Source: Sinohyriopsis cumingii | Lineage: Eukaryota > Mollusca > Bivalvia > Unionida > Unionidae | Assembly: GCA_028554795.2 (NCBI GenBank) | Contig: CM068831.1 | Location: forward strand, 67,555,982 to 67,619,981 | Length of the DNA: 64,000 nt | Direction: 5' to 3' | The notes under the pieces: model-generated | The model's input: only the letters and a program-made list of their open reading frames with translations | The model's database searches: none | What the model was told of the DNA's origin: nothing | Position numbers and translations under genes: made by a program | Shown: piece after piece, positions 12,311-54,574 of the stretch | How positions within the stretch are numbered: the stretch's first letter is position 1 | Layout: each line of letters starts with the position of its first letter

Positions 12311-12341
<31 letters not shown>
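12189..12341. repeat. Compound (CATA)n/(CATG)n microsatellite
   Basis: About 150 bases of CATA repeats with an internal CATG tract at 12241-12267. The long Tyr/Cys/Met/Val or His/Thr/Tyr/Ile open frames across it are repeat artefacts. It lies in the part of alpha1 that is deleted in alpha2. Confidence 0.95.

Positions 12342-13341: not shown

Positions 13342-13346
<5 letters not shown>

Positions 13347-13401
<55 letters not shown>
13347..13401. repeat. (CT)n microsatellite
   Basis: A 55-base uninterrupted CT tract. The matching tract in R2 is shorter and interrupted (40780-40819). Confidence 0.95.
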
Positions 13402-13403
<2 letters not shown>

Positions 13404-13673
13404 CTCTGTTCCTTCTGTCTTTCTTCCGTCTTGCTAGCTTGATTTCTTTCTGGCTGCATGTCCCTTGTTTTGCCCTATTTCTAAGGACCTGATGACATTA
13501 GTTTGTTAATTTGGATGGGAACTGTGTTCATGAGGTGAGAATACTACAATATTTAGATGTATATATCAAATGCATAGTAAAATAGATCTTTTCTGACCAT
13601 AATTTGTTAAGATAAAAATCTCCTCGCTTTGATGGTAAAAGTCATATGTTCCCGTTTTGTATGTTTTACAAGA

Positions 13674-13674
<1 letters not shown>

Positions 13675-13716
<42 letters not shown>
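13675..13716. repeat. (TG)n microsatellite
   Basis: 42 bases of TG, the same length as its R2 counterpart at 41093-41134. Confidence 0.95.
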
Positions 13717-13717
<1 letters not shown>

Positions 13718-14835
13718 CAAAAGAGTCAGGTAGAACATGTTTATCTCGTTTCACAATGCCCATTTTTATTAGATCTTGAAAACAGATTCACACCAGTGAC
13801 TTTCTTGGAAAGAAATACCCTTGTTGTATCCACGTTTATGCGGTAAAAATTCACACAGTTTTGATGTCGGCTTGCACACTTTGCTTCAGAAATACTCACC
13901 GAAGATGACATCAAGATGAGCTAACAGGATTGAAATCATTTATGTAAACATTGACAAATATGTATGAAATATTTTATTTTTAACAGAGAGCGCAATATCG
14001 ATATACATGTAAGTTAATGGCTAGTCCAACGTTCAGAACACATTTCGCCAAATTAGAACGGATATTATACACTGTTTAAAATATTCTAGTCGTTCATCTA
14101 TTATCGTATATTTAACTTATATTTAATTCTGAGCCATTTAAATTTGGATAAGAAATACAGAGGAATAAATCAACAGTGATTTTAGTTCATTCGAATGTGG
14201 TTGGAAGCAACATAACGAACAGTCTATATGGTTAAAAAACATAATACCATTCTCTCCTCCAATTATCCACGTTAAAGTTAAATCCAACAAGACAAGCTTG
14301 AGCCAATAGGAAACAAAAATAACATTTGTAAGAACTTGTACATGACACCAATTAAGATGCTGAAAATAAAATTGTTCATACTCTTATTTAGTGCTCATCG
14401 ATGTATCTTAAATGTGCATGCCAGCTGAAGCATAAATAATGTGAAACAAAATAATAATATAAATTTCGTTTGACTCAAAGGTCAATTATTGAATACTTCT
14501 CATTCTGTCCTGGTTTAGTCAGTACCTTTTTATATTCTCTCTCGATGGGCATTGTGAAAGATGACATTGTCCTCTCTCTGCCTTTCTTCCTTCTTGTTTG
14601 CTTGATTACTTTCTGGTTTTAAGTTCCTTGTTTTGCCCGATATCTACGGACCCGATGACTACAGTCATTAGTTTCTTAATAGCGATGGGAACTGTGTTCA
14701 TGCGGTGAGATTACTGCAAAGATGTATATATCAAATGCGTAGCAAAATTAATGTTTCCCTCATTTTTTGTTAAAATAAAAACGTCCCCGTTTTCATGGTC
14801 AAAATCATATGTCCCCATTTTGTAGGTTTTACAAG

Positions 14836-14838
<3 letters not shown>

Positions 14839-14876
<38 letters not shown>
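14839..14876. repeat. (GT)n microsatellite
   Basis: 38 bases of GT. The R2 counterpart at 42258-42279 is 22 bases. Confidence 0.95.
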
Positions 14877-14879
<3 letters not shown>

Positions 14880-14970
14880 ACAGAAGAGTCAGGTAGAATA
14901 TGCTTGTCATCTTTCACAATGCCCATCTTATTCAGATTTTGAAAACAGATTCACACCGATGACTTTCTAC

Positions 14971-17900
14971 TAATTAAATGAAAACAATATGCAAGACATC
15001 AGGACATGATTATAACAAGTTGACAATACATTACTAATGTAAGCGTTATTGAACAGAATAAGTACTGAGAGACACCAGAATCACAGAGCTATAGAAACAG
15101 ATTCTCAAGAACAGAAGAAAGATTTTTATAAGCTTAAGACGTGTTGAACAGAGATTCGGTACTCTATCTACTACTATCTAAGTCATTTAATCGACTTGAC
15201 ATTGAGACAGCTGATTCGCATAATGTTCAATGATACGTATATATCCCATGGAATTCGGATAAAAAGAGGAAAATATTATTGGAAAGCGACTAGCAGAAAA
15301 TAAAATTAAAATATAAAACAATTAAAAATAACAACAAAAGGAAAAAGGTGTCTCTTTTAATGTTAACTTCAATAAAAGAATAAAAAGATGAAAGAAGATG
15401 AATGATTACAATACATTATTTAATGGCCTGGACAAACACCATCTTAGCAAGTACTACACTATATAAAGTTTTCAGCAGCAAATTAAAAACGAAAAAATGT
15501 AGCCATAAATCTGATGAAGCTGAACGAATTAATGGCTAGATCTCTAGAAACAACATTCAGTCTATCCATTCATTTTTAGACTGGATTCATGTAGTCAAAA
15601 TGAAAAAGGATGTCACATTCAAACAATTAACAGCACACTAAAAGCCATCAAAGTAAAACACACATATGATTCGGTTATCTACGTTAATTATCGAATTGTC
15701 AGTGACATAAGAGAGCGGCATTATTTTTTATGACTTAATCTTTCGATGTAACTTACTTTTGTGACATTTGTAACTGTTTCGACATATCCGACTAACAAGC
15801 AAGTCTGATTCAGCAAATCATCACATCAGGTTAACACTTTAATCATGGAAATAAGCGGAAATAACTTCAAAGAGACGCCATCTGAGGTCAACTTTATTGT
15901 CTTTTATTAACAACTGCTGTCATTATTCCGGCGTTGTCCCTATTGCCACTGACCAGCAAATGGGGCCGAGACTCGCATACATCTCCCTTTACATACATGT
16001 ACATAGGAGTACTTACTGTGGGCCGAATACAACACTTGGAATAGGCAGCCATACCTTGGAGACATGCCAACCAGAGCAGTGTTCTCAGTAACCATTCTAT
16101 TTGCAGGTGGAACTCTAACAGATTTCTTTCTTGTTTAAATACCTCATGTGCATCCCAGTGATATATCTTTCCACATCTATGTCCAGCTCAAGTAAAGTTT
16201 GCAGGGCGCATCAGGATATTCTTTGAAACGTTACAGATCGTTGGATTGCTGACTATTTATGTGACAGTGTATGCCACACTCCAAAGCTGGAGCCCATAGT
16301 GTCTTAGAGGTGAATTTGGGCCAAGTCTTGAACATTGAGCCAGTACAGGTAATCTAAGTGCTTGTTTACAAGATAAAAATAAAACTATTTATATGCCTGA
16401 ATATTCTGATAGATCCTTCATTTCTGCTACGTTGTATGTTTCATGCACTGGCTAGGATTCATGTTTATGTCACACAAGAAAATGCGGATATGTTTTCAAA
16501 TATACTTTTGGAAATTGCATGCATCTGCTGTATATGCAAATAGCCTGAAATACATTTAAGAAATGTATTGGTCACACCATATCTAGATAAACAGAGGTAA
16601 TATATGTTAATGTCAGCTAATTCGTTTTTGCCTAGTGAAAGAAGCAAAGAAAAGAATAGTCATGGAAAAAATGGGACTTGCTAGATTGATTGACAATCGG
16701 CAGAACTATAAAGTGGAAGTGAAAGCTAATATCACATATAAGCATGTCCAGATAGAAATGAAACAGGGAGAACCTGACCGCCGCTCACTATTTTGATGTA
16801 TGGCATGTTGCCATAGATGTGTCCATAGCACAGTGTTTACTACACCAACTGATAATGGAAGAACCCTATTACTTTTACAGGGAAGAGACAAACAAAGAGC
16901 CCTACATCAAATCAGACAGAATAATATGTTTTAATATGTCTAATTCCATGTGTGAAAAAATAAACATGAGTTGATTGCCAGGGAACAAGAATTTTATGAT
17001 CTGAGTAACCAAATTTCCAGCATTTGAAAAAACGTAAATGCGTGTTTCCAACACTGATTTTAAAAAATTTTTATAAGTACTTGAACTTCGTTTAACTTAT
17101 CAATAACATATCTGGGACAGATAAATATTTTTCTATCGGAGGAGAGCGAGAATACTGGGTTAATTAATGCTGTGTATGTAAATGATGTAGCAGAGTCTGT
17201 GATTGAGATATTTGATTCGGAGCAATGTCTCTATTTTACGTTGATAAGAGTTAAGTATATTCAAAATTAAAACATCTCAGGTATTTTTTGTGCAAAAAAA
17301 CCTACATAATATCTGGGAAAAATGCAGACTAACAAAAAGTAATGTTATGACTCTAAGAAACAGAGAAATCAAGCTAAACCAATTTAGTAAATTTCAACAA
17401 ATAATGTATTTCTCTATAATACACAGGACATTTGAAATAGAACTTAATGTTGTGAATTAAAATCCAAATAATTCTAACCTTTCTATCATAAATCCAAAAG
17501 TATAGAGTGCTTTGAATGAATTCCAGGTTTTTAATATGCTTAAGGATCAATGGTGTTTCATGAGCTGATATGTCAGCAGTCTTGAATATATCACAATGAT
17601 ATAATCTAGAATATCTTTGAATGAATTCACAATAATCCAATATAATGATTTAGCCTAAAATGTCAGTAGCCACTTAGCAATTCCAATGAATGATATAACT
17701 AAATAATTCCTCTTAAATTATATCTCATACAACTAACAGTAATCTTAATAGACTGAAGATAAAATAGCAAAGACCAATTTGTTTACTTCAGAAAACTATA
17801 TAAAAGTCTATTACGCAATAAGATGTCAAGGATGATGATTATTTTCAATGGAAATTTCCATCACATTCGTAATTATATTCAGGTCTATTCGAATAAGGTT

Positions 17901-20900
17901 AAGCAACTATCGAGACCAAATACAATTTCCAAGGAAAAAATCTGAATCTGAGTACTGAACTCAAATCTAACTAAACATTTTGTTTACAAATGAATATCAT
18001 CTAAAAGTAAAATCTACAATACTGGACATGCGTTATCTATATAATGTGTTGCATAACAATGTCAGCAGCGATATACAGTCATGGACAAAAATTAAATACA
18101 CAGTATAGATATCCATAATATGAACCCATATCTTACTTGCTAATCACTGTGTGCGTTTAAACCCCTTATTTCACGTGATCTTTGTTTCTCGGGTAATAGT
18201 GTATCTATTAAACCATAACAAGTATGATCACTATGAGTAGACCCATATAAAGGAAAAGGACCGTCCAGATTGTTAAATATAGTCAGCGACGAAACGTTCC
18301 TTTTTCAATCGTTCACTCAAGTAGTCAAGTGTTTAGTTTTTACCGATGTTTTCCATTTATTCTTTATTTCCTTCATGCCTAACTTATTTCTTCAGCATAA
18401 CGATCAAATAACTTGAATATAAAGTTGTTTTTATTTTAAAATGCGAAATCTTTACTTATTGATTTTCCTGTAGTAATTGCTACTGAGGCTATATGCTTCA
18501 TTCAAGAGGAACAAACTTTGGTTCTGCTCCTATTATCACATGCTGACTCAATACCTTCTCTTTAACTCTCAAATGACTCAAACAGAGTTCTCTTGCATAA
18601 TGTGTTCATTTGTTTCTTTTAACGCTGTAAATTTAGGGAATTGATCTTTGCCTAATGTCTTTTTAGAGTGAAAGTGTTCAATGATTTCATCGGTCAGAAT
18701 GATAAAATCATAGCCAAAATTGTTTAAATTGTCAATTATAAAATTGGCAAATATTGTGAACTGTCTTGCTTTATGGTCTTAATGACGAATCTCCTCCATC
18801 TATAGGGTATACTAATTATTCAGCACATCATACGGGAGCATAAATAGATCCATATAATGCAGTTAATTAATTTATATATTTCTTTTTGTTTTGAGTTATT
18901 CACCTACAAAATTATCATTTAACACATGTTTCAGTTGAAATACATTATCTCGTCTACAAATTGCAAATCTACATTTAATTAAATCAGTTAATATAATTTA
19001 GCTGGGATACTAGTGGCAAAAGATACAATGCAAAAGTCATAGAGCTATTTCAAAATATTGTTATTTTCATTTTGCATAACACTCTTGTTTGCTTTTAACA
19101 ACTAATGTTTTCAAATTCACCCGTTTTTACTTATAATGTAATACTTTTTCCGTGTTGTATTCTATTTTGAATATCTCTTTTTCCTTTCTGTCGCCTTTGA
19201 TTGCATTAAAGCTAGTACTTAATGCATACGTCTGTTAACCACTTGTGTCTTGAGTGAACCTTTATCTACTATAAACCTTCCTTACAAATCATTTAAATGT
19301 TTTTGACAACACGGGAGAATTTTGGGTTTAATAAAGTCGGGTACAAAAAATGAGTTTTTAATCTGCATTTTCTAGATATTCCAGATTATTTGGTATCATT
19401 GTAGAGCTACATGTGTCTACCTTTCTGTAATACCACCCACTGTAGTGTATCATTCTACTGTTGTTTATTTTGTCAATACTATCATGCACCACGCTGATTT
19501 CAAGACACAACATCCCAATCATTTGCACACGGCTTAGACTGCCTAGTTTATGTTTCGTGCTATTCTTTGAATCTAGCATCTTAAATCGTTTGGATTTCAT
19601 CAATCCAGTCTAAAACGAATGGACAGTTTGCATGTCAATTTCATATATCTTACCATGAATTAATTCACTTCTATTTCTTTAACTGTTCTATTTCTCTTCT
19701 AAGTCTCTTCTTCTGCTGCCTGGGAACTGTGCTGTTGTCGGTGTTTGCTACGATATTGATTGTTCCAGGCCAGTAATGTATATGCTGAAATCATTCATCT
19801 TTTCCCATAACTTGATTCTTTTGTTCAAGTTGAGATTAAAAGGGTCAGAATTTTCCGACATTTTGGAATCTTTGTTTAAAAAATTGTTCTTCCACAGGAA
19901 CATATCTCTTTGTTAATCTTCGATTCCAATTGTTATATATCATCGAAGGTAAAACGAATCTTCTGATGATTGTCTTGTCTATCCAATGACTTGTAAAGTA
20001 GTAGATACAGTTCTGAATTTCTATCTAGACACATCAACAGCTTTAAAATTTGTTCTGCTCTGGTGGATCTCTTTCTACAACCATGGAATTTTGGAGGCTT
20101 CTCTTGTCATTCTATTAAATAATGATTATTAGTAATCTATTGTCCACTTGTTCCCTTCATCTCTTGATGTCTTTTAAATCGTTCACTCTAAACTTGCAGT
20201 AAGTGCAGTAATGAAGTAGTAAATTCAAGGGCATGGTCTTTTGGGGGGGTGTTTGTTATTGCAGTTGAAATTGAAGTAATCATGTTGTAAGGTAAAGGAC
20301 GAACTGATTTATTTCTTTATTTTACCCCAAGAAATACGGAATGTGGTTCTCTTTTAAGGTATATTAAATTGTGGTGACTTTGCTTTGTTTATGATACAGT
20401 AGTGAGGAAGGTAGTCAGCTATTATTTGTGCGGCTTTGCTGGGTAGGATGTGGCTGGATTGGGCTATTTTTAAAATATATAAATTGACTCATTTGGGTAA
20501 TGTGTAGTAGAATTAAGCAAATAGAAAAAATAACCGGCCTGTGTTTTCATTGTATCATTTATGATTCTAATAATTAAGTTGCTCCATGTTTATTTCTAGC
20601 ACGGTGATCATCGTAGTTACTTTAGATTTACAAAATTTATACCACTCAAACAATTGCTTCCAAATAAGTTTTATACTCTAGATAGCAGAAATAAAATAAT
20701 CATTTGCACACTAGTTTCCTCCAGAATCAACTGTAATTAAATCCTATGTAAATTTATATACTACAGTTATGCCTACAGTGACGAAACTATTTATTTCAGC
20801 AACATCATTGTCACTTTGTCCTACGTTTGATAATAAAACATCTTTCAACATTTAACTTATTTGATTACCTTACATAACATTTCTATGACAACAGGACCTG

Positions 20901-23900
20901 TAACGAGAACTCTCCATGAAATAGATGTAGACCAACTTTATATTCCAAATAACGAAACACGCACACGACCGAGGTGGCCTTAGTGTTTACTATTATTTCG
21001 ACACTCACCCCGCCAAGAAAAATTAAAAGGCACGCCCCATGCACTTGTGATATTTTTCTCAGAGCGAGGTAGTTTAAACCAACGAGGTTCCCAAAAGTTC
21101 ACAATTTCTGCATAGGCAGATGATGAAATCTGAATAACAGAGCGAAACGTACTTTTTTATTTGGCATGTGCAAAAGAGCACATAGCCAATATAATACATG
21201 ATTCATACACAATGCACTGTTGCATAAATGCCTAAATATATCAATCAATAATGGCTAAACAAATGTGCGCATAAATCCTCGGAGATGGACAGACAGACAG
21301 AAATAGAACTCTACAGCGAGAAAAGATAATCTAAGTTGGAATGCATTATCAGCATATTTACCTAGGTATTTTAGAGTTCTTAAATCTTCATTTTTGTGTA
21401 ATTGAAGTAATTGGTACATACTTGGTTTCTGCCAGTAATAAGGATCCAAATAAATTAAAATAAATATGTATTTTAGTCTCTGGTTACAAAACAATAAAAG
21501 GCAAGATATAAGGACTCAATTAGGATATTACCAGATCTCCAAGACCGTGAAGTCAATAAAATAGTTCTCACACTGGAAACCCAGTTATTACAATTCTTTC
21601 TTTTAAAATCTGTAAGCATTAATTGTTATATTTTTTAACAATTTAATTATTTGTGTTTAGCACTCTGAACCAATGCTTAATGATACGCACATATATATTT
21701 AATTAAAGAGTATGGGGGCCAAACTATCCATTTTCAAGCATATTGTTGGCAGGATGTATAACATCTAGTATCTACATGCATTATTTTCTATGTACCCGTC
21801 ATATACTATCTGTTTTCTAAACCACCAAATATCACAGCAATAAGACAATATTGGAGATGCGAATTAATCAAATAAATAAACCATTATATTTACCAGACAT
21901 TCTAGAATGTTAGTATTATTCAGAAGTAATGTGGCGCACACCTCTGCTCATGCAAAGTCTGACTGTATGCCCTGAAGTCGGAGAGGCATTGATCATTAAT
22001 CAAAATGTAATAACAAAACCAGTGGCTTCAAGTTAGTGATCATTTACTGTGATAGTACTGTTGACGTGTCACATATACAAAAACCACTCACTTCGTATCA
22101 ATCAAATCAGTTGCTACAGCTCTGTAAACTAAATCGACTTAAAAATCATGTAATGATCTCATTTCCTTTACAATTTGAACAGTAACTTTGTATTGGGGAC
22201 TTTTATTTATCGCTAATCACCTACCGTTGCTTAATTGTCAAACAACCACATAGATACTGTTCGTGTCAGCAATGTATTCCATATCAGAGTGAGCTATATA
22301 TAAAACTATATTATTCTTGCTGTACAAGCAATAGCTAATTTTATGTAACCAATGAAATATGTAGAAAGTCTTTTATGCAGTCAGCTATGGGATCCTATGA
22401 CTAATTTCGGTTGCCCAGAAAAATTCATCGTGATAGTTCGGTAATTCCATCATGGCATGCACGCTCATGTCATAGACGAGGAATAGTCATCTGAATCATT
22501 CCATGTCACCAATGGAGTCAAGCAAGGTTGTGTGTTGGCCCCAATCCTCCTGAGTATGATGTTCTCTGCTATGCTTACTTACGCTTCCCGTGACCATGAC
22601 ACTGGGATTGTATCCGATACCACACTGATGGCAAGATCTTGAATCTGTGGAGAGTTCAAGCGAAGACTAAGACATAAAATTACTGTTCGTGGTCAACTAT
22701 TTGCCGACGACTGTTACCTGAATGCCTGATCTGAGTCTTTGGATCCTTTGTGTCAGCTTGTAATAATTGCAATTATTATATTGTTTGGTTTGTGCTGTGA
22801 GTGATGCAGACGTAAACTAACAAGGGAAGGTGGTGGTTTTATGTTACAGTTCTAATCAATGATAAAACCAACACCAGAATTGCTAAAGCAAGTGTGGGCT
22901 TTTGGAGACTACGAGCAAACGTGTGGGAGAGAATTTAACAAATACGTTGAAGGTCTACAAAGCCGCTGTGTTGCCAATCCTGTTATATGTTTGCTTAAAC
23001 GCTATGTTAAGACGCTTAATCATTTTCACATTGGCTGCTGAGGAAACCGATTAGGATAAGATGTCAGAACATGGTTTCAGACACTGAGCTTCTCACAAGG
23101 GCAAACATTCCAAGTATTCACATTCTGCTGATGACATCACAGTAAAGACTGGCAGGACCCATCGCCAGTATGTTAGGATGTCAGAAGAGCGACTACTTAA
23201 GAAGCATTTCTACGTTGAGCTGAAGGAGGGGAAGTGATCTCAGGGTTGACAAAAGAAACGCTTCATAGATGCCGTCAAGACATCCTTGAAGCACTTCATC
23301 TATGACCAATAGCCTTGGGATGATCTCGCACAGGATCCCTCCCCTGGCGCAGTTTCATCCTTATTGGTGCTAAGGACTTTGAACAGATGACAATCGAAGT
23401 GTCATGAAAGAAGCGCGAGCAACGTAAATCTCAGAACTGCAGCACGTCCTGCATTGATCAATCTATCCCACCCTGCACATGCTTCCAAGTGTGACATAGT
23501 CTGTAAATAGCACACATTGACCTGATCTCACGTATTCACAGACTTCTAACCAGTTACTGATATCTTAGTCATCTTCGAACTCAGAGGATGCACAACAAGT
23601 TAACTTATAAAATGGGAAATGTATAACTTACCACTGCACATGAAAACTGCAAAAAGCATAAGTGACTCGTTATTGCTAATTTACAAGTAATAATTGGCCT
23701 CGCAACCATTTGTAAAAGCAACCTGAATTCAAAGCAATAAGGTTAATTGTTTTCTTTCACTATATTCAGCACAACGTACTCTTGGGATAATACAGGAATT
23801 TTCCATTCAGTAATACACTTTGATACAAATTAATTTTGATCTAGGTTTGTCTTGGCATAAAGGTGCTTGAAGGCTAGTTCTATCACACAATCGTAACTTA

Positions 23901-25020
23901 ATACATGTTGTTCAAACTGTGGACGGCATCAAATCGTCACTATATCGTGCATTTAAAAAATGTGTTCAGTCTTTATTTGTAGCTTCTCCTTGGAATCTTT
24001 TCTTTTTTGTTCCTCCTTAAATTTCAGAATAAGCCATAGATTTTGATGTCTAACAAATCAACATTCCTGCAATAAAAAGAAAGGCTTTTAAGGGAAGGTA
24101 TGCAATCCATAAGCCCTCAGCAAGACAAGAAGTGAACACTTAAGATATTGTAAAAGATTTCTTTAAACGGACAAAGTAACATAATATTATAGTGACGTTC
24201 TAGAATCCGTGTTAATTTAGATCAAACATTCTGAAATGGTGTAGTGTTGAGGAATATGGAAAAGCAGTATTACACGGAAGAAAAGTCCATATCATATTTG
24301 GTTATAAAAACATGGGACTAAACTTCTCTCGTACACTTATTTGGAAAAAAGTAAAGGAAGAATACCCATTACACGCAATGTGTCCACAAACATGGATTAT
24401 TGTGTACAATACACTAGGCATATTTGAGCTGTTATTAATAGATCGCATTCGTATTAATATATGCTGCTGATATTTGGCTACAATATTCATAAGCAATTGA
24501 AAACGTAAATGGTAAGAGTTTTACTAGATATGGAATCTTCCTAGAAAACATGCATACTCCCTGCTGCCACAAGGAGAATACTGACCAAGTACGTCTGTAT
24601 TTTACCTATTACTGTAAATTAATACTGGATTATGCTGGATGGTAACTGATATCCATGGCAATGCAATGAACACTGAAAATAACTCGATGAACCAGGTAAG
24701 TGAAAATGTGTTACAAATTTTAATAGCATACACTTCCCATATGGTTTGGGTTATAATAGGTACGTATAGGCTGTAGGTGATGACAAAGTTGTCCTATTTT
24801 ACCTATTACTGTAAATGTAGTATTTACCATCTGAAAATGTCATAAAGACAATTTAATGCAGAAATGGAATCCAACCGTAATCAAATCACATCAAGCATCC
24901 CACTACGGTTGCATTACACGTACCCATTGAGTAACCAACGCATCCATTACTGGCTTCAGAGTGGCGTATATATCGAGCATTGTGTGCGTGTGAGTGTGAA
25001 ACAGAAGGCAAATATTATGT
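14971..25020. repeat. Segmental duplication segment beta1
   Basis: Nearly identical to beta2 (42374-52426; offset 27404-27406, roughly 1-2% different by eye) and distantly paralogous to alpha. It contains a LINE remnant at 22360-23560. Outside that I see no gene, RNA or intact mobile element in 14971-22359 or 23561-25020; open frames are short and resemble nothing I know. Confidence 0.85.
22360..23560 (+). pseudogene. LINE reverse-transcriptase remnant, beta1
   Basis: ORF2 pieces in order: MTNFGCPEKFIVIVR (from about 22397), FHVTNGVKQGCVLAPILL (about 22500-22555) and SMMFSAML, the catalytic box FADD (22700-22711), IAKASVGFWRLRANVWER, LLRKPIRIRCQ, LKHF..PWDDLAQDPS, and the degraded C..C tail near 23480-23530. 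Segments between FADD and the thumb region are missing. Many stops and frameshifts rule out function. The catalytic DD survives here but is changed in the other copies. Confidence 0.82.
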
Positions 25021-26342
25021 TTCACAATGCCCATTTTATTCAGATCGTGAAAACAGATTCTCCACAGGGATTTTCTCAAACGAATTCAGGCGTAATATCT
25101 CAACTTGCACCATATGTCATTTCAGCATCCCAGAGAAGAGCTTCAATGGAAATATCATTCACTAATTAGTACTTTTCACACCATATTTCTTTCACCCGTA
25201 TGCGATATATATTTGATATTTTTCCAATGTCGTCATGAAAAGTATTTCTACTATGGATTCTTACTTTTTCGCTTTTTTCATTTCACTGTTACATTTGTGA
25301 TTGTTGAACCATTGTTATGTAGGTGTATGTTTATGCTCCACATTTCCAAATATCCCTTTTCATGGACATTGCAATAGATAGCATCTGCAGCAGTAGGTAT
25401 ATAATAGAAATATTAGCAGCCGGTATCATTGTCATTGATAACTTGTTTTCACTTCTAGCGAATGGAGAGCAAAGTGACCATTATTTTTCTTTGGTTTTCA
25501 ACGATTGCAATATCTCAATCACAATACATGTCAAAAATGATGTATACGAGATAAAACTATAAGAGTGTTTACCAGCAGCAGAAGGAGCTTTTCACTATTC
25601 ACGTTTCGTTTTGACTATATTATTAGCCCAAAGTTGAGGATACTAAATGTCCAAATAAGGCAGAAAAGAATGAGGCGACAGGTTGTATTTCAAAACCTTG
25701 TTGATATTTTTTTTCTCCATTATTTATCTTATAACACTAAAAAGCTGCCGCTTGTGAAGTTCACAGACTCTCTCCAAGTTTCATATTTCACTCCAAATCT
25801 AATGTATTTAAATACGAGTAATTTAGTACGGAACGTAATATTATATAGCAAACAAAATGTCATCCAAAGTATTTTAGGAAGACCAAGAGATAGCACAGAT
25901 AGCTCTGTAGGTTTCGGTTCTACGAAAGTATGAAATTATTAGTTATGGTGTACTAGGTTTTAGCTGCAGTGCTTAGTTATGTTATTTTTGTATGCCAGAA
26001 CTTAATTTCCTATTTTAGGATCACAATATTTGTAGTGAGGTTAATTTGTACAACTCACTGAGTTAGTTGGGCTGCAATTCGCGTCATTGGAGAAAAAATA
26101 CTTTCTCCTCTAGAAAAATAATTATATTTTATGCTGACAAAGTCTATTCGGATGAATTTATAGTGGATTGTTTACATCCGTCTTATCATTCTTACCCAAT
26201 GAAATCAATGCCTCGAACTGGATAATTATTATTCAAGCAACACCCCCTTTTTGTGTATTCCCAATTATGTATCTAATAAATATGGACAGCCCTCTTAAAC
26301 ATTTCCACATCCAGCTATACGCTAGAAAATCCTTAACTGAGA

Positions 26343-27131
26343 ATGTTTTGTTCAGTGTTCTTTACCGTGACAATGGTTCGCTTATTCTTCGCTTTCCTGA
26401 CGTTCTCTGAATTGCTTACAAGCGGACATCCTCAAATTAATTGTGGAAACGTCACTTCATCTATATGCCAAAATGTCCGTTTTGGAAAACCAATTGACTG
26501 CCAGGACATTTACCAAATGGGTTTTACAAAGACTGGAGGCTACATTATTTATCCCAAAGGACATCCTAATGGTATCTACGTTCGATGTGACATGCGTACA
26601 GCCGGTGGAAGATGGACTGTCATTCAGAGAAGAATCAGCGGAGATGTTGATTTCTTTCGTGAGTGGATTGATTATAAAGAGGGTTTTGGTGATCCAAATG
26701 GAAACATGTGGCTCGGAAATGACAATATACATGACCTCACGGCTCAGGCCGATTACCAGCTGCATATAAACTTGACTCTTTCAAATACAAGTACCAACTT
26801 TGCCATGTATGATACTTTCTCGGTTGGAGACGAAAGTAGTGGATATCTTCTCATCGTAAAAGGCTACAGTGGAACAGCAGGCGAGTCTTTCTATGCTCAT
26901 TCTTGTATGAAATTTAGCACCAAGGATTGGGACAACGACAAAGCCAATTCAACAAATTGTGCCAGTAGATATAAAGGCGGTTGGTGGTACAATAATTGCT
27001 ATCATTCAAACTTAAATGGAATCTACGGATCCACCAATTTTGGTGAAGGAATAAATTGGAAAATATATTCCGGACATCATACATCCATGATATATGCAGA
27101 CATGAAAATAAGGAGAAAAATTTCACAGTAA
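26343..27131 (+). CDS. Secreted fibrinogen-related domain (FReD) lectin, copy 1
   Basis: A 262-residue open frame, complete in one exon. It encodes a probable secreted carbohydrate- or acetyl-binding lectin of the ficolin/tachylectin-5/FREP type. Residues 11-28 form a signal peptide. Met11 (position 26373) has the better start context (A at -3, G at +4) and may be the true start. The FReD spans about residues 50-258: GGRWTVIQRR (88-97), FFREWIDYKEGFG (104-116), MWLGND (122-127), MKFSTKDWDNDK (189-200), GGWWYNNC (212-219) and SNLNG (222-226). Family disulfides would be C53-C82 and C206-C219. D197 and D199 match the calcium ligands. C34 and C42 are extra N-terminal cysteines. There is no collagen, coiled-coil or Ig segment, so it is FReD only. 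Oddities against copy 2: Y220 replaces the canonical His after Cys219, C188 is an additional cysteine, and NLT at N143 is an added glycosylation sequon. The family call is firm; the ligand is unknown. Confidence 0.93.
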   Translation: MFCSVFFTVTMVRLFFAFLTFSELLTSGHPQINCGNVTSSICQNVRFGKPIDCQDIYQMGFTKTGGYIIYPKGHPNGIYVRCDMRTAGGRWTVIQRRISGDVDFFREWIDYKEGFGDPNGNMWLGNDNIHDLTAQADYQLHINLTLSNTSTNFAMYDTFSVGDESSGYLLIVKGYSGTAGESFYAHSCMKFSTKDWDNDKANSTNCASRYKGGWWYNNCYHSNLNGIYGSTNFGEGINWKIYSGHHTSMIYADMKIRRKISQ

Positions 27132-28041
27132 GAGTGATACAAAAGTATTAAGATAAAAAAATATTTGTACAAATAGGGTAAAGCAGCTTGAAGTATGTCC
27201 ATATAGATTGATGTTATTTGAAACTTTCGCAGCACCCCGCTTTAGTCATATGAATATTCCTTCTTCATAAAGGGACGCAGGTATAATTAATTTGTAGAAC
27301 CATTTAAATTTGCTGTCCCTATTGCATTTGAAACGGATGCAGTTGTAATTCCTTTGTTTTGTCTGAAAGGAGATAGTTTAAAATTAATAAGTATATTTTA
27401 TTGAAAGTATGATTCTACATTTTCATTTTGTTTGTTTTTTCTTATTATTATTCGCAATTTGTACTTTCAAAATTTTGATGTTAATTGCAAAACATATAAT
27501 ATGCGCTACATATACGGGTGCAAATAACATCCTAGTTCCCTCCACTCCCATACCGACCTAACGGATTGATCAAATGTTAAAGAAATGTTTTGCATATTTA
27601 TATATCTATGTCAATTGGCAACAAAATTCCCTGTTCTATTAATGTATTTACACATTGATGAACATGTGCAATCGTCAATCCACGATCTGAATCAGAATAA
27701 TATATAAATATCCCGATTTCAACAAGCACCTTGCTTAACATCTCAGTTAACAATAGTGTTATGTATTGTAAAAAGTGGCAATATATTACATTTTAAGGAA
27801 TGATAAAATATAATATTCATCCGTATGTAGTGCTGCATAAGTGTGGTTTTCAAACATAGTTTCGTACAAACAAAGAAACATGAGCAGCTTACGTTCTTTT
27901 CCTGGGGAATGGTTGCTGTTTTCAAAATCCTAAGAGTTTTTCAAGGACAATTAAAAGGACTTAGGAGACAATTCTTTCCCCTGCTAGTCAAACCTTTGGG
28001 TTGATGTCCTTGATTCATTCAGAGTCCGTGACCTTAAATTG

Positions 28042-28049
28042 TGACGTCA
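28042..28049. promoter_or_regulatory. CRE-like palindrome TGACGTCA
   Basis: A perfect 8-base cAMP-response-element palindrome, about 0.9 kb downstream of the FReD stop, present unchanged at 55457-55464. One such site in this length can arise by chance, so function is unproven. Confidence 0.2.
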
Positions 28050-28483
28050 CAGAAAGTTACTATATTAGATAAAATCAGACCCAAATGACTCTTTGGCATA
28101 CTCGAGTGCATTGCTAACTAGGAAAATCCACGAAGAATACACAAGATACCAAAAATTCCATTTTCATCATTTTTCCGAAAATAAATTCATTGCTTTAAAA
28201 TTATGAAAGAAGACAAATAAAATAAAAAGGTACACAAAATCTGAAAAGTATAAAATCCAAAAATAATGTTAAGTACCGGAACATTTACAAAGATACTAAA
28301 ATGCAGTCCAGTATACAACATTGATCGTCTTTCTCAGTTAATCAAGAAGTTCAAGGTTATAAGTTTCACACAAGACAAATATTTTAATATACCTTGCGCA
28401 GATTCCGTATTTAAATCTCCGAAATTCCTGAAGTTTCATGAACTTTAATATCACTGGGTTGGTTCTTGCAAACTTTCCCATTT

Positions 28484-28729
28484 GCTATATAAACATTTTG
28501 TTGCATTGACACATTAATCGTGTTTGTTGTTCTTTTATCTTTTGTAGCAAACAAGTTTTCTTGCATGGCGATTGACCCAAATCATGTAGAACGCCCCAAC
28601 TGCCTTCACGGTAGCCATATAAACCTTTGTTGCATTAACACAGTAATCGTATTCGTTGCTGTTTTATTTTCGGTTACAAAGAAACGTTATTGCAGAGTAA
28701 TTTATCCAATATCATGTAGAACAAACCAA
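28484..28729. repeat. Diverged 130-base tandem repeat
   Basis: Two units start GCTATATAAAC (28484) and GCCATATAAAC (28614). They share TTGTTGCATT, the ACACA/G-TAATCGT segment and ATCATGTAGAAC near their ends. The unit 2 counterpart is 55899-56150. Confidence 0.75.
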
Positions 28730-29499
28730 TCGTGAAACGATCCGGAATAATTATTGCATTTTAACTGAATTCACGAGATTTTTACTTATTTTCCTAAATT
28801 TGTCTCCAGGCACAGTGATATATGACGCATCATCGGCACGTACTGATCACACTGAGAATCGATTTCAGGGTTATTCTCAACTGGCATTAACTTATATTTG
28901 ATCCTCTTGTTAATCAATGATTGTACTCTACACCACAATTAGCCCTCTAAGTGGTTAGTATATACGTTATCAGCCCGAGAACGATATTCTAGATCAAAGT
29001 TATTGATGTAAGAGTTAGAATTTTCACAAAAGCATAGTTCGCTTGTCAGGACCTGTCTCGCCTAAAGAGGTTCTAATATTTGCTACCGATAGAACTTCTA
29101 TCTATTGAAGATACAAGTAAAGAAAAACTAATTTTGAACTTCCATAGGAAACAAAAATATCTAAAACATATATTTGCTGCATCGGGGTTTTCAGATTCAA
29201 ACAAAGGGAACAGACATGTATAAGTATTGATTTCACAAAGAACGATATTTTAAGAGAATATGTTACATTGGCAATTACTCAGGATATTTGGCTTGGATCG
29301 GTGTTTCATACATGTATATGCATTTCAATTGGAAGTCACGTTATGATCCTTCATACCCTAAGTTCAATTTGGTATTATTATTTTTTTATTAAGTAGGCGT
29401 AACGTATCACTGGAGACCTGTAATAAAAGTCTATATTATAAACAAAATGCTTTAATACGAAAGTTTGTTCTAGATCAGTAATCGATCTGTAGGAGGAGG

Positions 29500-29710
29500 A
29501 ATATAGTTCTGAGAACCAAGGCCCTTCTTATAATCTATTCAGTTATGAAAGAACTCAGCAACACTGTTGACGCTTCTTATGAAAGAATATCCGTCCTCCA
29601 CCAGTAGTATCGATGTCACAGCTAGCGTAGATCCTGCTACGATCCCCGTTGGATCAATGATGTAGACGCCTATCCTATCAGTCTTCTGTTTTTCTAAGCA
29701 GACATTGTGC
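29500..29710 (-). pseudogene. Decayed FReD pseudogene, copy 1
   Basis: Reading the minus strand, the order of motifs is that of a FReD N-terminal half. It runs NVCLEKQKTDRIGVYIIDPTG, then (after a frameshift) ASCDIDTTGGG, then (frame restored) FIRSVNSVAEFFHN, a TGA where the family has Trp, and IDYKKGLG. The matching segments of the intact gene are DCQDIYQMG..GGYIIYP, RCDMRTAGG and FFREWIDYKEGFG. The similarity fades below about 29500. An open frame continues upstream on the minus strand to about 29955 but shows no family signature. There are at least two frameshifts and one nonsense codon, so no intact protein is expected. It lies about 2.4 kb downstream of FReD copy 1 and points toward it. 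Confidence 0.8.
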
Positions 29711-32700
29711 AGTGTAGGAATGGCTCTTTTTGGTTCTGCCAGTCTTAGCAGTTTCACATGCAAGGACAATAGTTTTGTGCATTTCTGCTCAGAAACAATG
29801 CTGCTAACAACCGGTTTGAGAGGACAAAGCTGTTTCCTTGTTTCAGTGAATATGACAATGATACGGAATGACCATTCTAGTCGATACTTGAATAGAGTTA
29901 TTAATCCAAGGCAATATGTATGTTTTAGTCTGTTTGATGTTCATCACAGTTTTCCGACTATGTTAAGGATAGCGGTAAATTGCCTTACTCCAGTAAGATT
30001 AGTTTCTTTTTAAAATGAAAGAAACTCATTAAATAATTATAAACATAAAATAAGAGGGTTCTGACATTCAGTTATATTTGCACTGTCTAATTAGCTGTAG
30101 CTGTAAGGTCGTTAGAGTAGCCATCTACAACGATATTTACCACCTTCTTGTCGTATAATGACGTTCGTTCAGACAAGTAACTTCAGTTCATCAGTCTATC
30201 AACACCACTAATTATGCATCAACATACCTTAATAATTCTCTCAAAGACGCATACATTCTTTTATGTGGTTGAGCTAATACCACTTGATGACGTACTGTTG
30301 CTATTACTCTTGGAATGGAAGCTTTTAGAGCTTACGGCATGTCAATGACCGCTGAGTACAAGGAAGGGACTGTTATTTTTCTCGATTGAATTATGGCAAG
30401 TGTTCAAGAGTCCAATGATTATATAATTTACAAATCTATCTAGCTAGCTATTTACCCAGGTTTATTTTTGTCTTTGCTTTGAGCGATTTCATTATTTTGG
30501 TTGGAAAACACATCGAATGATTTTAAGTGTGATGGTCGTTAATTTCATATGAAGGACACCATCTTTTGCTTGTTTTAGAAAGGTACTCTGAAAGCTCGAC
30601 GCACAGGGTCTCTTAAAATAAAGATCGAGTATAAACGTTATAAAGATCGTTTGCTTAATTGTATTCACATCAAAATTCTTCTTTGTGTACAAAATTAAAG
30701 CACGTATCATTTGAATGGGGGAAGTGTATCATCTCTTTTATACGCATTTCATATGCTTAGCATTTACATGAACAGCCACGAATAACAATATTCTATCTAT
30801 TCCTCAATCGAACTTGGTAATATATTGCTGGTTAAATAAATATTGCCCATGCGATTGTTTCACAATCAAACTAAGTAAGGAGATTAGAAACTTGTAAAAC
30901 CCCTCAAGACAATCTTTTTTTTACTCTAAAGGTGCTGAGGTTATTACAAAAAAAATCATTTAGCTCGAAGACTTACGGCCGTTGATTTGATTGATACTAA
31001 GTTTGTGTTATCTGTATATCTGTCACGTCTACATTACTATTACAGGAACAAATAATTACGAACTTAAGGCTACGTTTTGTACTGATTGATTTTAAAAATC
31101 TTTAATGAATATCCGACTTCGTTTCTTGTTTGAACTTTGATCAAAAAATCGTTAGAAAACGTTAAAGGCCCCTGAATACCTATCCCTACATACATATCGT
31201 GACACAATATAGTCTGAACATCAAACAAGGGGTATAGTCAGAAATAGCAAGAACATGGTCGTGTCCCACAGTTATTCAGAATTTACCATCAGCGCATGTG
31301 ACATTTTGGAAACCTTCCTGGTTGTGATCTGCTTGTTCAGTGACCAGTTCAGTTCAGCCCCTTCTGAAGTGACCAATATCAGAAGTATAATGGAGATACC
31401 ATTACTTTTACGTGGATGGGGTGAATGTGTCAAAATAAAAGAAAAGGTTCGTTTGAGCTCAATGAATTGACGTCAGCAATAGCAGAATTGGAGACAGTGC
31501 TGGTGATTTGTATACCGTCACTAGCACTGGGCAAGTGTCTGAATAAAACAAAATATTTTGTTTGAGGCTTATTATAAGCTAGCATTGAATTACACTTAGA
31601 CATATTTATCTGCATTCTTTTACTTTTAGATGTTAACTGTTCATCATGAATATACTTCAAAGAGAACACAGACATTGAGCCCCGGCTTAAGATCCGACGA
31701 ATGGTCTTGATCTACATCGCTCAAAATAGCATAAGTTTATGTAACAATTATCTCGAACATGAAACGTCAGCACGTCTTATTTCCTACTGCAGGTAGATGT
31801 GTACGCATAGCTCAAAAATGAGACACTAATAATGTCAACAGCCTGTAAATGTTTATGTGTACGTGTGGATGTGTTAGTGTCATTGTTGAGAATAAAGCGT
31901 TGGTCTCCACAAGTAGTTTCATAATGAACACGTTCTTCTTGAAAGAAGTTTGAATATGGAAACTAAATCAGGATGAGAACGGAGAATGTGACACATTTTG
32001 ATTTATTTCTCATATCCTGATATTTTGTCAATATTTTGAATAAATATTTACAATGATATCTTCATAGGTCACTATTCTTGAAATGAACATAGAGCAGGCA
32101 CAATTAGTACAATGGAAAATGATAGCTTATCGAACGAATTACAAAACACAAATCGGTATCTGTTTTAAATTCTGCTGCGCATTATTCAGTTGATTCGTTT
32201 GATGTTGACAATCAATATTTTTGTAAACAAAAATACAAATAGTACGAATTTAATTTCTTATTGACAGTTTTTTTATGTAATGACGTCTTTTTTGTAGTCT
32301 GAAGGCAACACTGCTTATTTTTAACCGCTTTAGGGCATGTTATAGACAGACTTAGTAAAGATCGAGGAATATATAGAAGGACGATGTCTTTTTTAAATTT
32401 AAATACTAAGAACTGGCATAGACCATTTATCGAACTACTGTGTGCAAAGCCAGCAAATTACAGCAATAACAACAACAAGACGACACTGGCACGCTTCTAC
32501 TAGGATTGAGTCACTTTCTTTGCTAATTCAAAGACATGATAGGCACGAACCCACGTTTCATACAAACAAATAAAATGGCGGTCACTTTCATTTGATATTG
32601 CATAAAGAAAAGGAAATTACGAGTCCACGTTACATATAGTGTATCAATATCCCACCACAAGTCACAAGCCACACCCCAAAAACGAAAATACTGGTCTACT

Positions 32701-34884
32701 TTCTTTACTACTTTAAGTTAAACAAAGAAAACTGCCACCAAGGAAGAGAACAGACCACCTAACCATTTTCTGTATATTTCAGTGCAAAACAAAAAATATG
32801 TTACCATGTCCAATATCTCACCACGTGATTACTTTACTTGCTACTGTATTAATGAACTTCCTGACATTGTTACTTCAGCAATTTAAATGAGAACAATATG
32901 AAAGACATCAAGGCATGATTGGAACAAGTTGACAATACATTACTAATGTAAGAATTATTGAACAGAATAACAACGGAGAAAGACCAAAATCACAGATCTG
33001 TAGAAACATATTTACATGAACAGAGAAAAAATTTGTACATGTTTAAGACGTTTTTAACAAACATCCGGCTTTCTGTCTACTGCTACTTATGTCATTCAAT
33101 CGACTTGACAAAGAGATAGATGATTCGCCTAACGTTTATTCATATATACAACCCCTGGAATTCAGGATAAACAGAGGGAAATATTATTAGAGAGCGACAA
33201 ACAGAAAGAAGAAAAAAAATAACGAAAATAAAAATTTAAAAATAGAAAAATGATCAGGAATGTTGTGCTTCTTTTAATCTGAACTTAAAAGAAGAATCAA
33301 GAGATTGAAGAACATGAATGATTAGAATACATTAATTAATGGCCTGGAAAACAACATCGTAGCTAACACTACCTCTTGCACAGTTTTCAAGCAGCCGAAA
33401 GATCTACCCATTTAATTCATGGCTAGATCTATAGAAACAACATTCAGATTACCCATTCATTTTCAGATTGCGTTGATGTAATCAAAACGAAACAAGATGT
33501 TACATTCCAAGAATTTGCAACGCCATACAAGTCACAATCTAAACCACATGCAAACGGTTTTGAAGATCGGAAAGGGGTTTCTTAATTGATCTTGTGCGTG
33601 ATAGTATTTGGGAAATATATAACATAACGATAGAATGAGAACACATTTAAATGATTTCGAACAAAGGTTTACAATATATATAGGTGAACTCAATAGCCAA
33701 GTGGATGAAAAGGTGTATACATTAAGTGTTAGGCATCATGCAATTAAAACCAAAAGAAAGGAAATACAGATATGCAAACCAAATTAAACACGGAAAATGG
33801 GCATCAAGAATATTCCGTTTCACGTAAAAGGGTAATTGAAAAATCGATCAATAAAACAAACAAGATAGTTATACAAAATGAAACTAATACTTAACAGACA
33901 TTAGACGCAAATCAGTACCTAATATTTACAGCGGAAAAGAAAGACGTGTACGTTATCTAAAAGAAAACGCCGTTTTAATCATTTGAACGTAATATAAAAT
34001 ACGCCATCTTCAGTCAGAATGTAAAACAACTATTGGAACCAGTCTCAAAGTATGTTTGGACGATAAATAAGTGACGGCTTAACTTTTCAAAACAAAGTCA
34101 AATATCTATTCAAGTTCACTGACCGAACTGCTGAAAGAAATGAAGAGTACGGGCAAAAAACTAGCGAATACGGTGAAAACAGAGCATAGACACTTGACGA
34201 CTTGAGTGAAAGATTGAGAAAGAATGGTTTGGTTACTAACTACATTGAGTAATCTGGACGGTCCTTTTTCCACATATGCGTCTACGTATTGTGATGTTGA
34301 TACGCGTGGCATAAGACAATACTTGAAAACAAAAGACCACCTCAGATAATTGATTATTTCATTCTTGTGATTGGCACGTGAGATACGAATACTTATTGTT
34401 TTTAGGTGTCCATTTTCCTTACATCGCTTCTAGGCTTATTCAGCACAGTAAATAACTAAGATGTATACATTCAGAAAATACGTAATTCTTATCAAGGAAG
34501 CGATATCCCTCCTGGTGACTCAGACATCTCAATCACAAAGACTGGTATATGATTCGCGCAAATAGCAGTATTAAACCAAAAAAAATCTTTGCAGCATTGT
34601 ATACCAAAGTGAAACTAAAATATCATAATTTGCTTTCATAAGATAATCATCTTAATATCAGTGACATGAGAGAGCGGTAGGAGTTTGGATGATTTAATAT
34701 TTCGATGTAACTTACATTGTTGGAAGTTGTGAACAATATGAGCATATCTGACGAACAAGGAAGTCTGATTCAGCAAAGCATCACATCAGGTTATCACTTT
34801 TATCAAGGAATTAAGGGGAAATACCTTCACAGAGACCCCAACGGTGCGAGTAAAATGTCTTAAGCAAAAAGTAATTTCCATGTT

Positions 34885-35168
34885 GTGCGTATGTGTGTGT
34901 GATTCTAATGTTTAACATAGCTTAAAAAACATTTGCAGTAATATAGCTACGATGTCTGCAGTGTGACAGATTATAGTGATATCTAGCCCTGAGGCATCAT
35001 GTCGCAGATATTATCCAGACACCACACCGACCAGGAAAAACACCCACCACTTAATGTTGAGCGCCAAGCGAAGCAGCTGCTTGTACCATGTTTATTAGTT
35101 TTTGGTGTGACTCGGCCTGGGTTCGAACCCGCGAACTCTCGCATCCAAGGCGGTGGTTCTAACCAATA
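34885..35168 (-). mobile_element. SINE family B, alpha2 copy, 5' end deleted
   Basis: Matches 62259-62562 closely but stops within the A-box region (CCAATAAGGG at about 35163), where 102 bases present in alpha3 are missing. The B-box region is intact. Confidence 0.7.
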
Positions 35169-37736
35169 AGGGAACATGGCGCCCTTTGATTACAATTACA
35201 CAGGAGTGCTACCTGTGGGGAAAATAAAACTCTTGCAACAGAAAGACATATCTCTGAGACAAGTTAACTGGAACATTGTATTCTCAGTAGCCATTCTATA
35301 TCCTTCCTTTGCCATACTTCATGTGAATCCCAGTGACACATCTTTCCACATTTATGGCCAGCTTAGGAAACGTTTGCAGGGCTCATCAGGATAGTTTTTG
35401 AAAAATCTACAGGACGTTGGATTGCTGATGGTAGATGTGACAGTCCATGCCACTGTCCACGTTTTGGAACCAATAGTGTGTTAGAGGTGAATTCCGGTGT
35501 AGTCTTAGACATCGAGCCAGCAGAGGTAATTTAAGTGCTTGTTTGCAAGATAAGAATTAAAATATTTATATGTCTGAATATTCTTATGGATTCTTCAATT
35601 CTGGAAAGTTGTATATTTGCATGCACTGGCAAGGATTCATTTTTGAGACACAAGAAAATAAGCATATGTTTACAAAGTTACTTCTGTAAATTTCATGCAT
35701 TTGCTCTGTAAATGCAAATAGTTGCAAATACGTTTAAGCAATGTATTGGTGACACCATATCAAGAAAAACAGATGTAATGCATGTTAATGCTGACCAGAT
35801 AATTCGTTTGTCCCAGATCAAAGAAGTAACGTGCAGAATCCACATGGGAAAACTGGACATGCTAGATTGAAGTTGAGGTTGACACTATTGTCACATACAG
35901 CCATCTGCAGATAGAAATGGAAGAAGGAGAACATGAGAACCATTCAGTATTTTGATGTTTGGCATGTTCATAGATTTTTTCATAGCATAATGTTTACTAT
36001 ACCAGATTATATCATATGATAAGGGGAGAACCCATTACATTTGCAGGGAAAACAAACAAAGATCTACAAAAAATCTGACAGAAAAATATAGCTTTGTATT
36101 TGTTTAATTCCATGTGTGAAGAAATAAAAATGAAATTAATTGCCAGGGAAAGATAATTTGCGGATGTGAAGAATGGATTTGGAGAACTCCAAATACATCT
36201 GTTGGTGCTTCCATCCCATTTAACTCAGCAATACTATGCAATATCAGTGAAAATATTTCCTATCGAAGGCGAGTGAGAATCTTCAAACAAATAGTGGTGA
36301 CCATCACTTAGCAGGCAACTACAGAGGTTCTGCTCATAGAGACTGTAATCAGGACTTTAGAAACACACAAAAACGCCAGTATTCCATCACAAGTTGTCAT
36401 ATTAAAATAAGCATCTCCTCATCAAAGTACTAAACTTTATACCTAATAATGATGACACAGGGCCCCGGTTTATCATATACTTAGGTGCGAACTGTATAAC
36501 CTATTGTTGGTGAAATAATTACATATTGCTGATTCCAATATTTTCACACGTGTATAAATATCCTTGTATATTTATAGATGAAAATATCAGATTTTGCATC
36601 ATATCTTTGGGCGCTTCATTGTGTATGCCTGCAGAAGTTATTCATGCAGAAAAAATGCACTTTTGAGCAATAACAAATTAGAAATGGTATCACTTTTCAG
36701 TAGTGGAAATTAATTGTCGCTTAATTTATTTCAAACCAATCGCCCCACCGAGAAATTATATCTCCTTCCCTCCTTGACAAAAGTGATAAACCTAATGTTG
36801 TGCTTTGCTGAATCGGAACAGCTTTGCGATCAGATACGATAAAATAGTTTACAAAATGTCAAAATGTATTGCAACAGATTATGTCTACCCAATCACACCA
36901 CTCACTAATCATTGATATTTACTGAATCACCATATAAAAGAGAATCGTCATATTTCGTTTTCACTTTAGTTTACGATCCTCCAAAGACTGGGTTTAATGC
37001 TGCTCTGTGTCTGAATGATGAACTAGTTTTTGTGATTGAAATATTTGACTAGTTGTGATATCTCTTCCTTCTTCTTACAAGTTATGATATTCAAAATCTA
37101 AACATCTTAAGTATGTATAGTGCCAGAAAACCTGCACAATATGCAAATTAAATTCACACTAACACAAAATATTCTTAGACTCTAAGTAACTGTTATGAAT
37201 ATTTAATTAGCTTTGTTTGTTAGCTTTATTTTAGTTTTTTGCATTACATGCTATTGTAATGTAACATTGTATGTTGTTCTTGACCTTGTCCAAAATTGAG
37301 CTCATTTCTGCTTGACCCAGATTAACTTCTTTATTTTATTTATTGTAAACAACTGATACTTAACTATTTATTCTCAGTATGGATGGGGTTAAAATCAGTA
37401 TTATTATTAATAGAGAAGTAAATTATACATAATCTAGGTTCTTCTTACTAGAAGGTTATTTTCCATCAGGTAATAGGTTTTTTTTATCATAGAAAAGATT
37501 AGTTATTCTAATGGTTTTTTCGCTGGAACTACAAAAGTGCTCTGATATAATTCTTTGATAAAGACATTCACTGCAATTTATAATGTATTCAAACCTGGAA
37601 TTATATTTCTGTGATACAACAAAAGACTGTTGGCACATAAACACACTATAACAGACACATCATCGCCGTCAGTTTTTGGATTTATTTTTTACTACTACTG
37701 AAGTTTATTATTATTTATTTATTATTATGTTCGGCT

Positions 37737-38933: not shown

Positions 38934-39061
<128 letters not shown>

Positions 39062-39924: not shown

Positions 39925-40106
39925 TGTTGTTGTTGTTGTTGTTGTTGTGGGGTTTAACGCCATTTTTCAGCACACCATAGGCTATACATGGCGGCCAGTA
40001 TTATTGGTGGAGGAAGAACCCGGAAAACCCCCGGAAAGAACCACCGACCCACGAGAAGCCACTGGCAAGCTTTCTCACATACCCACATTGTCCCAATTCG
40101 AGACTC
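39925..40106 (-). mobile_element. SINE family A, truncated, alpha2
   Basis: Keeps the (TTG)n tail and central domain of the element at 8678-8932 but loses the tRNA-like head (A and B boxes). At 40103-40106 (ACTC) it is joined straight to R sequence. Confidence 0.85.
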
Positions 40107-41091: not shown

Positions 41092-41135
<44 letters not shown>

Positions 41136-54537: not shown

Positions 54538-54568
54538 GAGTGATACAAAAGTATTAAGATATCGCGGG

Positions 54569-54574
54569 AATAAA
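54569..54574 (+). promoter_or_regulatory. Candidate polyadenylation signal of FReD copy 2
   Basis: A consensus AATAAA hexamer lies 31 bases past the stop codon. Copy 1 lacks the roughly 10-base segment here and has only the variant GATAAA at the matching place. Function is inferred from position. Confidence 0.4.

Follow-up and report, generated by a model that had tools for sequence, protein, structure and literature searches.

The FReD genes on contig C8 of Sinohyriopsis cumingii probably form a tandem array of single-FReD lectins in which the scaffold is under purifying selection and the S1 ligand pocket under diversifying selection, with duplication, point mutation and segment exchange all contributing to the present set of copies. 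The window analysed here is the whole 64-kb stretch C8:67555982-67619981, which has zero N and holds two of these genes, each within one unit of a long repeat:

12668..36510, no strand assigned: long repeat unit 1, containing copy 1; identity to 40103-64000 of 98.1% (16.1 kb), 99.1% (6.4 kb) and 100% (1.3 kb)
26343..27131, + strand: FReD lectin copy 1 (L001), a single ORF of 262 aa; PF00147 with E 4e-64 over residues 51-257
26775..27071, + strand: variable stretch of copy 1, codons 145-243; 16 bases unlike copy 2, in 12 codons, all replacement
40103..64000, no strand assigned: long repeat unit 2, containing copy 2, 27.4 kb downstream of unit 1
53749..54537, + strand: FReD lectin copy 2 (L002), an ORF of 262 aa; PF00147 with E 4e-67
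54181..54477, + strand: equivalent of the variable stretch in copy 2, from base comparison with copy 1

The array and its two copies in the window

PF00147 is the sole Pfam domain in each 262-aa ORF, and its scores of 216.8 and 226.7 bits in copies 1 and 2, against a curated cut-off of 22, place both in the FReD family. The N-terminus of copy 1 resembles a signal peptide, as judged by eye, and is followed by the fibrinogen C domain. Elsewhere in the window there is an ATAC microsatellite at 12182-12340 and a perfect AT repeat at 38937-39057.

A protein search over the 2.905-Gb assembly (1138 contigs) returned 121 matches, some of which are pieces of one gene. The 21 full-length copies all lie at 67.03-67.75 Mb of C8, with 86-100% identity to copy 1 and a spacing between neighbours of roughly 16-42 kb; shorter, more diverged copies lie upstream of them. 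Nineteen of the 21 are free of stops, while L005 and L019 both stop at codon 228, using different bases (TAA and TAG), and three copies (L007, L017, L019) have no ATG at codon 1, with ATGs present at codons 9 and 11. Two gene pairs, L008/L007 (C8:67457558-67477668) and L013/L017 (67639624-67659737), have an identical two-gene layout with 16.3 kb spacing each. The two pairs are separated by 182 kb, and their likeness suggests the joint duplication of a larger block of the array. All 21 copies were aligned codon by codon. Across them divergence is 6% in the 5' flank near the ATG, and it rises from 8% at the end of the coding sequence to 15% directly past the stop (window 27132 onward).

Between copy 1 and copy 2 the coding sequence has 17 base differences: a synonymous one at coding base 18, and 16 in codons 145-243. 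A recount bore out the preliminary description of this region, which had reported 16 base differences in 12 codons at 26775-27069, every codon a replacement, with one synonymous base upstream; the codons replaced between copy 1 and copy 2 are 145, 146, 152, 163, 188, 209, 220, 233, 234, 240, 241 and 243, and Nei-Gojobori path counting divides the 16 differences into 15 N and 1 S. The flanking divergence, put in the same description at about 1%, is right for the 5' side (1.0% over 1.4 kb) but slightly low for the 3' side (1.4% over 0.5 kb, 2.1% over 1.5 kb). Rooting with L005, an array copy carrying a stop codon, assigns 13 of the 16 changes to the copy 1 branch and one to the copy 2 branch, leaving two ambiguous; most of the change between the two copies occurred in copy 1. 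On the copy 1 branch the C-half of the domain has 13/357 changes against 22/2929 in the flanks (odds ratio 5.0, P=4e-5), a five-fold higher rate.

A single pair lacking synonymous change is a small count and weak evidence alone. When six recent pairs are pooled, N and S changes in the C-half stand at 48:7, and the sites themselves at 280:77; the difference (P=0.07) is not significant and tells against any claim resting solely on synonymous counts. The 295-bp variable stretch is also wider than the part showing a clear excess in other pairs.

Variability and conservation around the S1 pocket

FIBCD1 is the best solved relative by sequence, and pocket membership was assigned by sequence alignment to FIBCD1 together with published residue lists. 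The FIBCD1 acetyl pocket is described in PMC3908420 as comprising Tyr405, His415, Tyr431, Trp443 and, at its base, Ala432, with the Cys401-Cys414 bridge alongside, and the Ca2+ ligands given there include Asp393 and Asp395. The corresponding codons in copy 1, with their states across the array, are:

26931..26939, + strand: codons 197-199, with two Asp that match the Ca2+ ligands Asp393 and Asp395; invariant in 21/21 copies
26970..26972, + strand: codon 210, matching pocket residue Tyr405; Y/C/F across the array
27000..27002, + strand: codon 220, matching pocket residue His415; Tyr in copy 1, His in copy 2, H/R/Y/L across the array
27039..27044, + strand: codons 233-234, matching pocket residues Tyr431 and Ala432; Phe-Gly in copy 1, Pro-Ala in copy 2, nine and five amino acids across the array
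27075..27077, + strand: codon 245, matching pocket residue Trp443; Y/H/R/D across the array

Cys206-Cys219 is the counterpart of Cys401-Cys414, and both cysteines are invariant in all 21 copies, every one of which has the Ca2+ ligands and disulfide of acetyl-binding FReD lectins. The five pocket residues rank high in variability among 210 sites (233 first, 234 seventh, 245 ninth, 220 twelfth, 210 sixteenth), with a permutation P over the domain of 5e-6 (2e-5 in a second run) and within the C-half of 7e-5 and 8e-5. A wider S1 set of 11 residues, drawn from the residues named in PMC3908420 and PMC10825690, is likewise more variable than chance (P 2e-5 and 2e-4). The structural mapping proposed at the outset, done here by alignment to FIBCD1, thus places the clustered variability at the ligand pocket. 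The original assignment of the 295-bp stretch to the P subdomain holds for most of it, but codons 145-163 precede the pocket part as judged from the same alignment.

The five-residue pocket reads Y-Y-F-G-H in copy 1 and Y-H-P-A-H in copy 2, and the 21 copies together have 17 five-residue combinations and 19 eleven-residue motifs. Position 233 takes nine amino acids, every codon T-ending, with Tyr in 5/21 copies. The full canonical set of five S1 residues (Tyr405, His415, Tyr431, Ala432, Trp/Tyr443) occurs in 0/21 copies, the nearest being L011 and L019 (2/21), in which Gly replaces Ala and the second of which has a stop; as far as the sequences indicate, many copies therefore probably do without the usual N-acetyl binding. 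A predicted structure of the copy 1 domain only (pLDDT 94.6) has TM scores of 0.93-0.95 to FIBCD1, ficolins and tachylectin-5A (TL5A); FIBCD1 is the best solved fold match by E-value (TM 0.95), and tenascins score nearly equal.

Selection, exchange and competing explanations

Among the 19 stop-free copies, mean pS and pN are 0.042 and 0.007 in the N-half of the FReD (codons 48-143) and 0.049 and 0.078 in the C-half (codons 144-262). The dN/dS analysis that had been proposed for the family, carried out as site models on all 21 copies, yielded a codon class with omega near 10 (omega2 9.4-10.8, 6-12% of codons), M2a improving on M1a with LR 149 for the FReD on the full tree, 125 for the C-half on its own tree and 171 for the C-half on the N-half tree. 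The same test on the N-half as a control gave no signal (LR 1.5 and 0.0). Naive empirical Bayes posteriors on the full tree exceed 0.9 at codons 201, 204, 209, 218, 221, 233, 234, 240, 241 and 245; the C-half tree loses site 204 from this class, and the N-half tree replaces 245 by 192. The full-tree class takes in three of the five pocket residues (233, 234, 245; Fisher P 7e-4), residues 210 and 220 being variable but below the M2a posterior of 0.9.

Trees of the 5' flank, N-half, C-half and 3' flank are mutually rejecting, and comparison of the copies indicates that array members do exchange segments. L011 and L019, for example, nearly share the C-half, with two codons differing past codon 122 (codons 123-262), despite flanks that differ by 12% on the 5' side and, on the 3' side, by 6% over 0.5 kb and 22% over 1.5 kb, an apparent sign of such exchange, and L006/L018 diverge by 2.6% upstream and 13.7% downstream. 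Because the four segments' trees conflict, neutral simulations of C-half size were made, 30 in which the tips were reshuffled at intervals of 10 codons and 30 without reshuffling; the largest LR values were 39 and 12.5, respectively. Recombination inflates site tests; the observed C-half LR of 125 is well outside the simulated range, which places the codon class with omega >1 beyond the effect of recombination and supports diversifying selection. Two weak signals, with LR 9.6 for codons 1-47 and LR 7.9 for the C-half minus the 11 most variable codons, fall inside the simulated recombination range and were dropped.

Synonymous divergence across the array is 4-6%, and that of the flanks is 6-15% in 24/29 windows of 100 bases, reaching 30%. 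Homogenisation of the coding part by conversion, or constraint on silent sites, would each explain the low synonymous value. Given this low dS, the family-wide C-half dN/dS above 1 is partly a low-dS effect; against the flanks, family-wide C-half pN is not elevated, and it is the pocket codons and the recent pairs that carry the case for selection.

Disjoint pairs chosen by a fixed rule, with both flanks within 5%, number five. At flank rates these pairs should have 1.3-1.5 changes in pocket codons, and they have 8 (P 7e-5 to 1.4e-4). The counts elsewhere are 27 for an expected 29.5-32.6 in the part of the C-half beyond the wider S1 set, and 2 for an expected 26-29 in the N-half. Seven pairs selected by the 5' flank alone have 15 pocket changes against 1.7 (P 5e-10), or against 4.3 at the larger flank rate (P 5e-5), and five pairs with the stop copies and the window pair left out have 10 against 1.25 (P 8e-7) or 3.2 (P 0.0019). 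Six hand-picked pairs, which are not the closest disjoint set (L006-L018 and L003-L005 are closer), have 11 against 1.4-2.3 expected, and repetition by the fixed rule gave the same conclusion. For the wider S1 set of 11 residues, P in recent pairs runs from 2e-7 to 0.07 according to pair choice and flank rate. With the pocket above the flank rate and the remaining C-half at about that rate, the excess belongs to the pocket, not to the C-half as a whole. Diversifying selection, offered in the preliminary description for the whole 295 bp, is thus supported by the other copies and by the FIBCD1 pocket mapping, but is concentrated on some 10 pocket and rim codons.

Several explanations would do without selection. 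Ectopic gene conversion might have brought a divergent tract into copy 1 or copy 2, and the conflicting segment trees and the L011/L019 C-half suggest that exchange is real in this array; yet nine copy 1 codons are absent from the other 20 full-length copies, and of the 40 best-candidate assembly places that were scored, copy 2 alone exceeds 91% identity, so the copy 1 block does not come from a known copy, and the original suggestion that divergent sequence had been imported into copy 1 is not borne out. A neutral tract should moreover carry synonymous differences, and it would leave the variability of the pocket columns unexplained, which makes conversion an unlikely account. We consider relaxed constraint, with redundant copies decaying to pseudogenes, less probable again: the codon-228 stops in 2/21 copies, the missing codon-1 ATGs in L007, L017 and L019 and the near-flank rate of the C-half outside the wider pocket set would all fit it, but pocket codons change about 3-9 fold faster than the flanks, depending on pairs and flank, N-half replacements are far fewer than expected (2 against 26-29) and the Ca2+ ligands and Cys pair have not changed in any copy.

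Local hypermutation aimed at pocket codons, of an AID-like or retroelement-like kind, would account for the clustering of changes, for codons with two bases altered and for the NNT or NNC series formed by several codons. A mutator is not expected, however, to spare third positions, and in the 11 most variable codons (a set chosen on the same data) the first and second positions have diversities of 0.45 and 0.43, and the third has 0.11; this extends to A-ending codons, site 241 being always A-ending. The low third-position diversity indicates that changes track the protein and not a base or a spot, and hypermutation in place of selection appears very improbable. Slighter still is the chance that copies 1 and 2 are two haplotypes set in tandem by the assembly. 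Their 1-2% divergence is near the heterozygosity of 0.92% given for S. cumingii in PMC10969987, but the window is uninterrupted by N, the assembly is described in the same source as HiFi, and the pattern repeats elsewhere in the array, persisting after removal of the window pair.

Proposed mechanism, role and relatives

Our preferred reading of selection on the pocket can be set out as follows. The array would encode secreted single-FReD lectins of tachylectin-5A-like architecture, in which the scaffold is kept constant by purifying selection, together with the Ca2+ site and the disulfide at the pocket, and diversifying selection would alter the residues that line the S1 ligand pocket and its rim. 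Segmental duplication would give rise to new copies, with pocket replacements following by point mutation, and copies would additionally trade segments. The proteins are presumably expressed and secreted, and the pocket changes may well shift ligand specificity. Such lectins could serve microbial (immune) recognition, and we regard immunity as the likeliest role, with a fair though not strong degree of confidence, recognition of gametes or particles being its main rival. A broader reading, possible but held only tentatively, is that of a germline lectin repertoire, in which an ancient acetyl pocket common to TL5A, FIBCD1 and M-ficolin would have turned hypervariable across some 20 tandem genes with one scaffold, 19 motifs, segment exchange and distinct specificities.

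Selection may also be real but directed at gamete recognition or particle capture and not at immunity, an outcome we think rather unlikely and yet the most serious of the alternatives. In its favour are the sperm bindins of oysters, F-type lectins for which PMC5712786 reports positive selection at eight fucose-pocket sites and isoforms without the binding triad. Against it, nothing in this analysis links the array genes to gametes, and mollusc FReD proteins are described in PMC4346834 and PMC8678459 as pattern recognition or defence proteins.

TL5A of the horseshoe crab consists of a short N-terminus and one FReD, as do the array proteins, and the predicted model of copy 1 has a like fold (TM 0.93). 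According to PMC3908420, TL5A and FIBCD1 have in common the Ca2+ site, the Cys-Cys bridge adjoining S1 and most pocket residues; the pocket residues conserved there in FIBCD1, TL5A and L-/M-ficolin vary in the array. The same source describes human FIBCD1 as a membrane protein with an acetyl-binding pocket, and ficolins as having a collagen-like region ahead of the FReD. The array ORFs differ from FIBCD1 in a signal-peptide-like start, no further domain and a changed pocket, and from ficolins in having PF00147 only, with no collagen-like region in the ORF (further upstream exons being possible).

Biomphalaria-type FREPs have one or more Ig-type domains ahead of the FReD, and their diversity is mainly in the Ig part. 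They resemble the array as mollusc FReD proteins in tandem clusters with reported hypervariation and positive selection (cited in PMC4346834 and PMC8678459). The array differs in that its 262-aa ORF has no Ig-type domain (again allowing for possible exons further upstream) and that its variation sits in the FReD pocket and is present in the assembly. Coral tachylectin-2 belongs to another lectin family, and its diversity is allelic and not that of an array. It is alike as a lectin for which positive selection is reported (PMC2880987). Oyster bindin is closer in that positive selection clusters on a sugar pocket, with recombination and isoforms that lack the canonical triad, and is unlike the array in its other fold, few genes, repeated domains and alternative splicing (PMC5712786). 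Diversifying selection on lectin pockets is thus already known from the oyster bindin account (PMC5712786), and positive selection is reported for snail FREPs (cited in PMC8678459). Among the entries listed in a survey of open-licence literature, judged by title and start of abstract, none gives an account of this array or of FReD pocket hypervariability, and in PMC10969987, on the S. cumingii genome, 'lectin' and 'fibrinogen' each occur 0 times.

The open question to which these genes speak is how invertebrates achieve specific recognition without antibodies: if the proposed reading is true, such an animal gains a set of distinct lectin specificities. Rapid evolution, the array suggests, is possible even at a pocket surface taken to be conserved. 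Since the variable residues are those of a solved pocket on a near-constant scaffold, and the proteins are small, glycan arrays could give a direct measure of the specificity of each copy.

Four other FReD groups were assembled by hand from 19 of the 46 non-array loci fetched, the C4 group having three loci only. In the same 11 columns their pN/pS is 0.98, 1.55, 4.4 and 2.2, against 0.29-0.59 in the remainder of the C-half. His220 and Tyr/Phe233 are kept in all members of three of these groups (15 loci) and not throughout the fourth, a more diverged set of 4 loci close to the array on C8; in a second alignment, position 233 is Tyr or Phe in 20/21 (21 of 34 non-array rows). These patterns point to rim variation in several groups and to loss of the canonical core in the array and its nearest relatives.

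A scan for bacterial promoters and terminators found nothing above chance, such models not being meaningful for animal DNA. The mitochondrial contig C807 has genes on both strands, as judged by eye, which is typical of Unionida, and carries COI twice (L031/L032), 15,961 bp apart, so the mitochondrial circle was assembled nearly twice. A second COI (L033; 506 aa, protein 68% identical) on C1106 may come from a male-type mitogenome, as in doubly uniparental inheritance, or from a contaminant.
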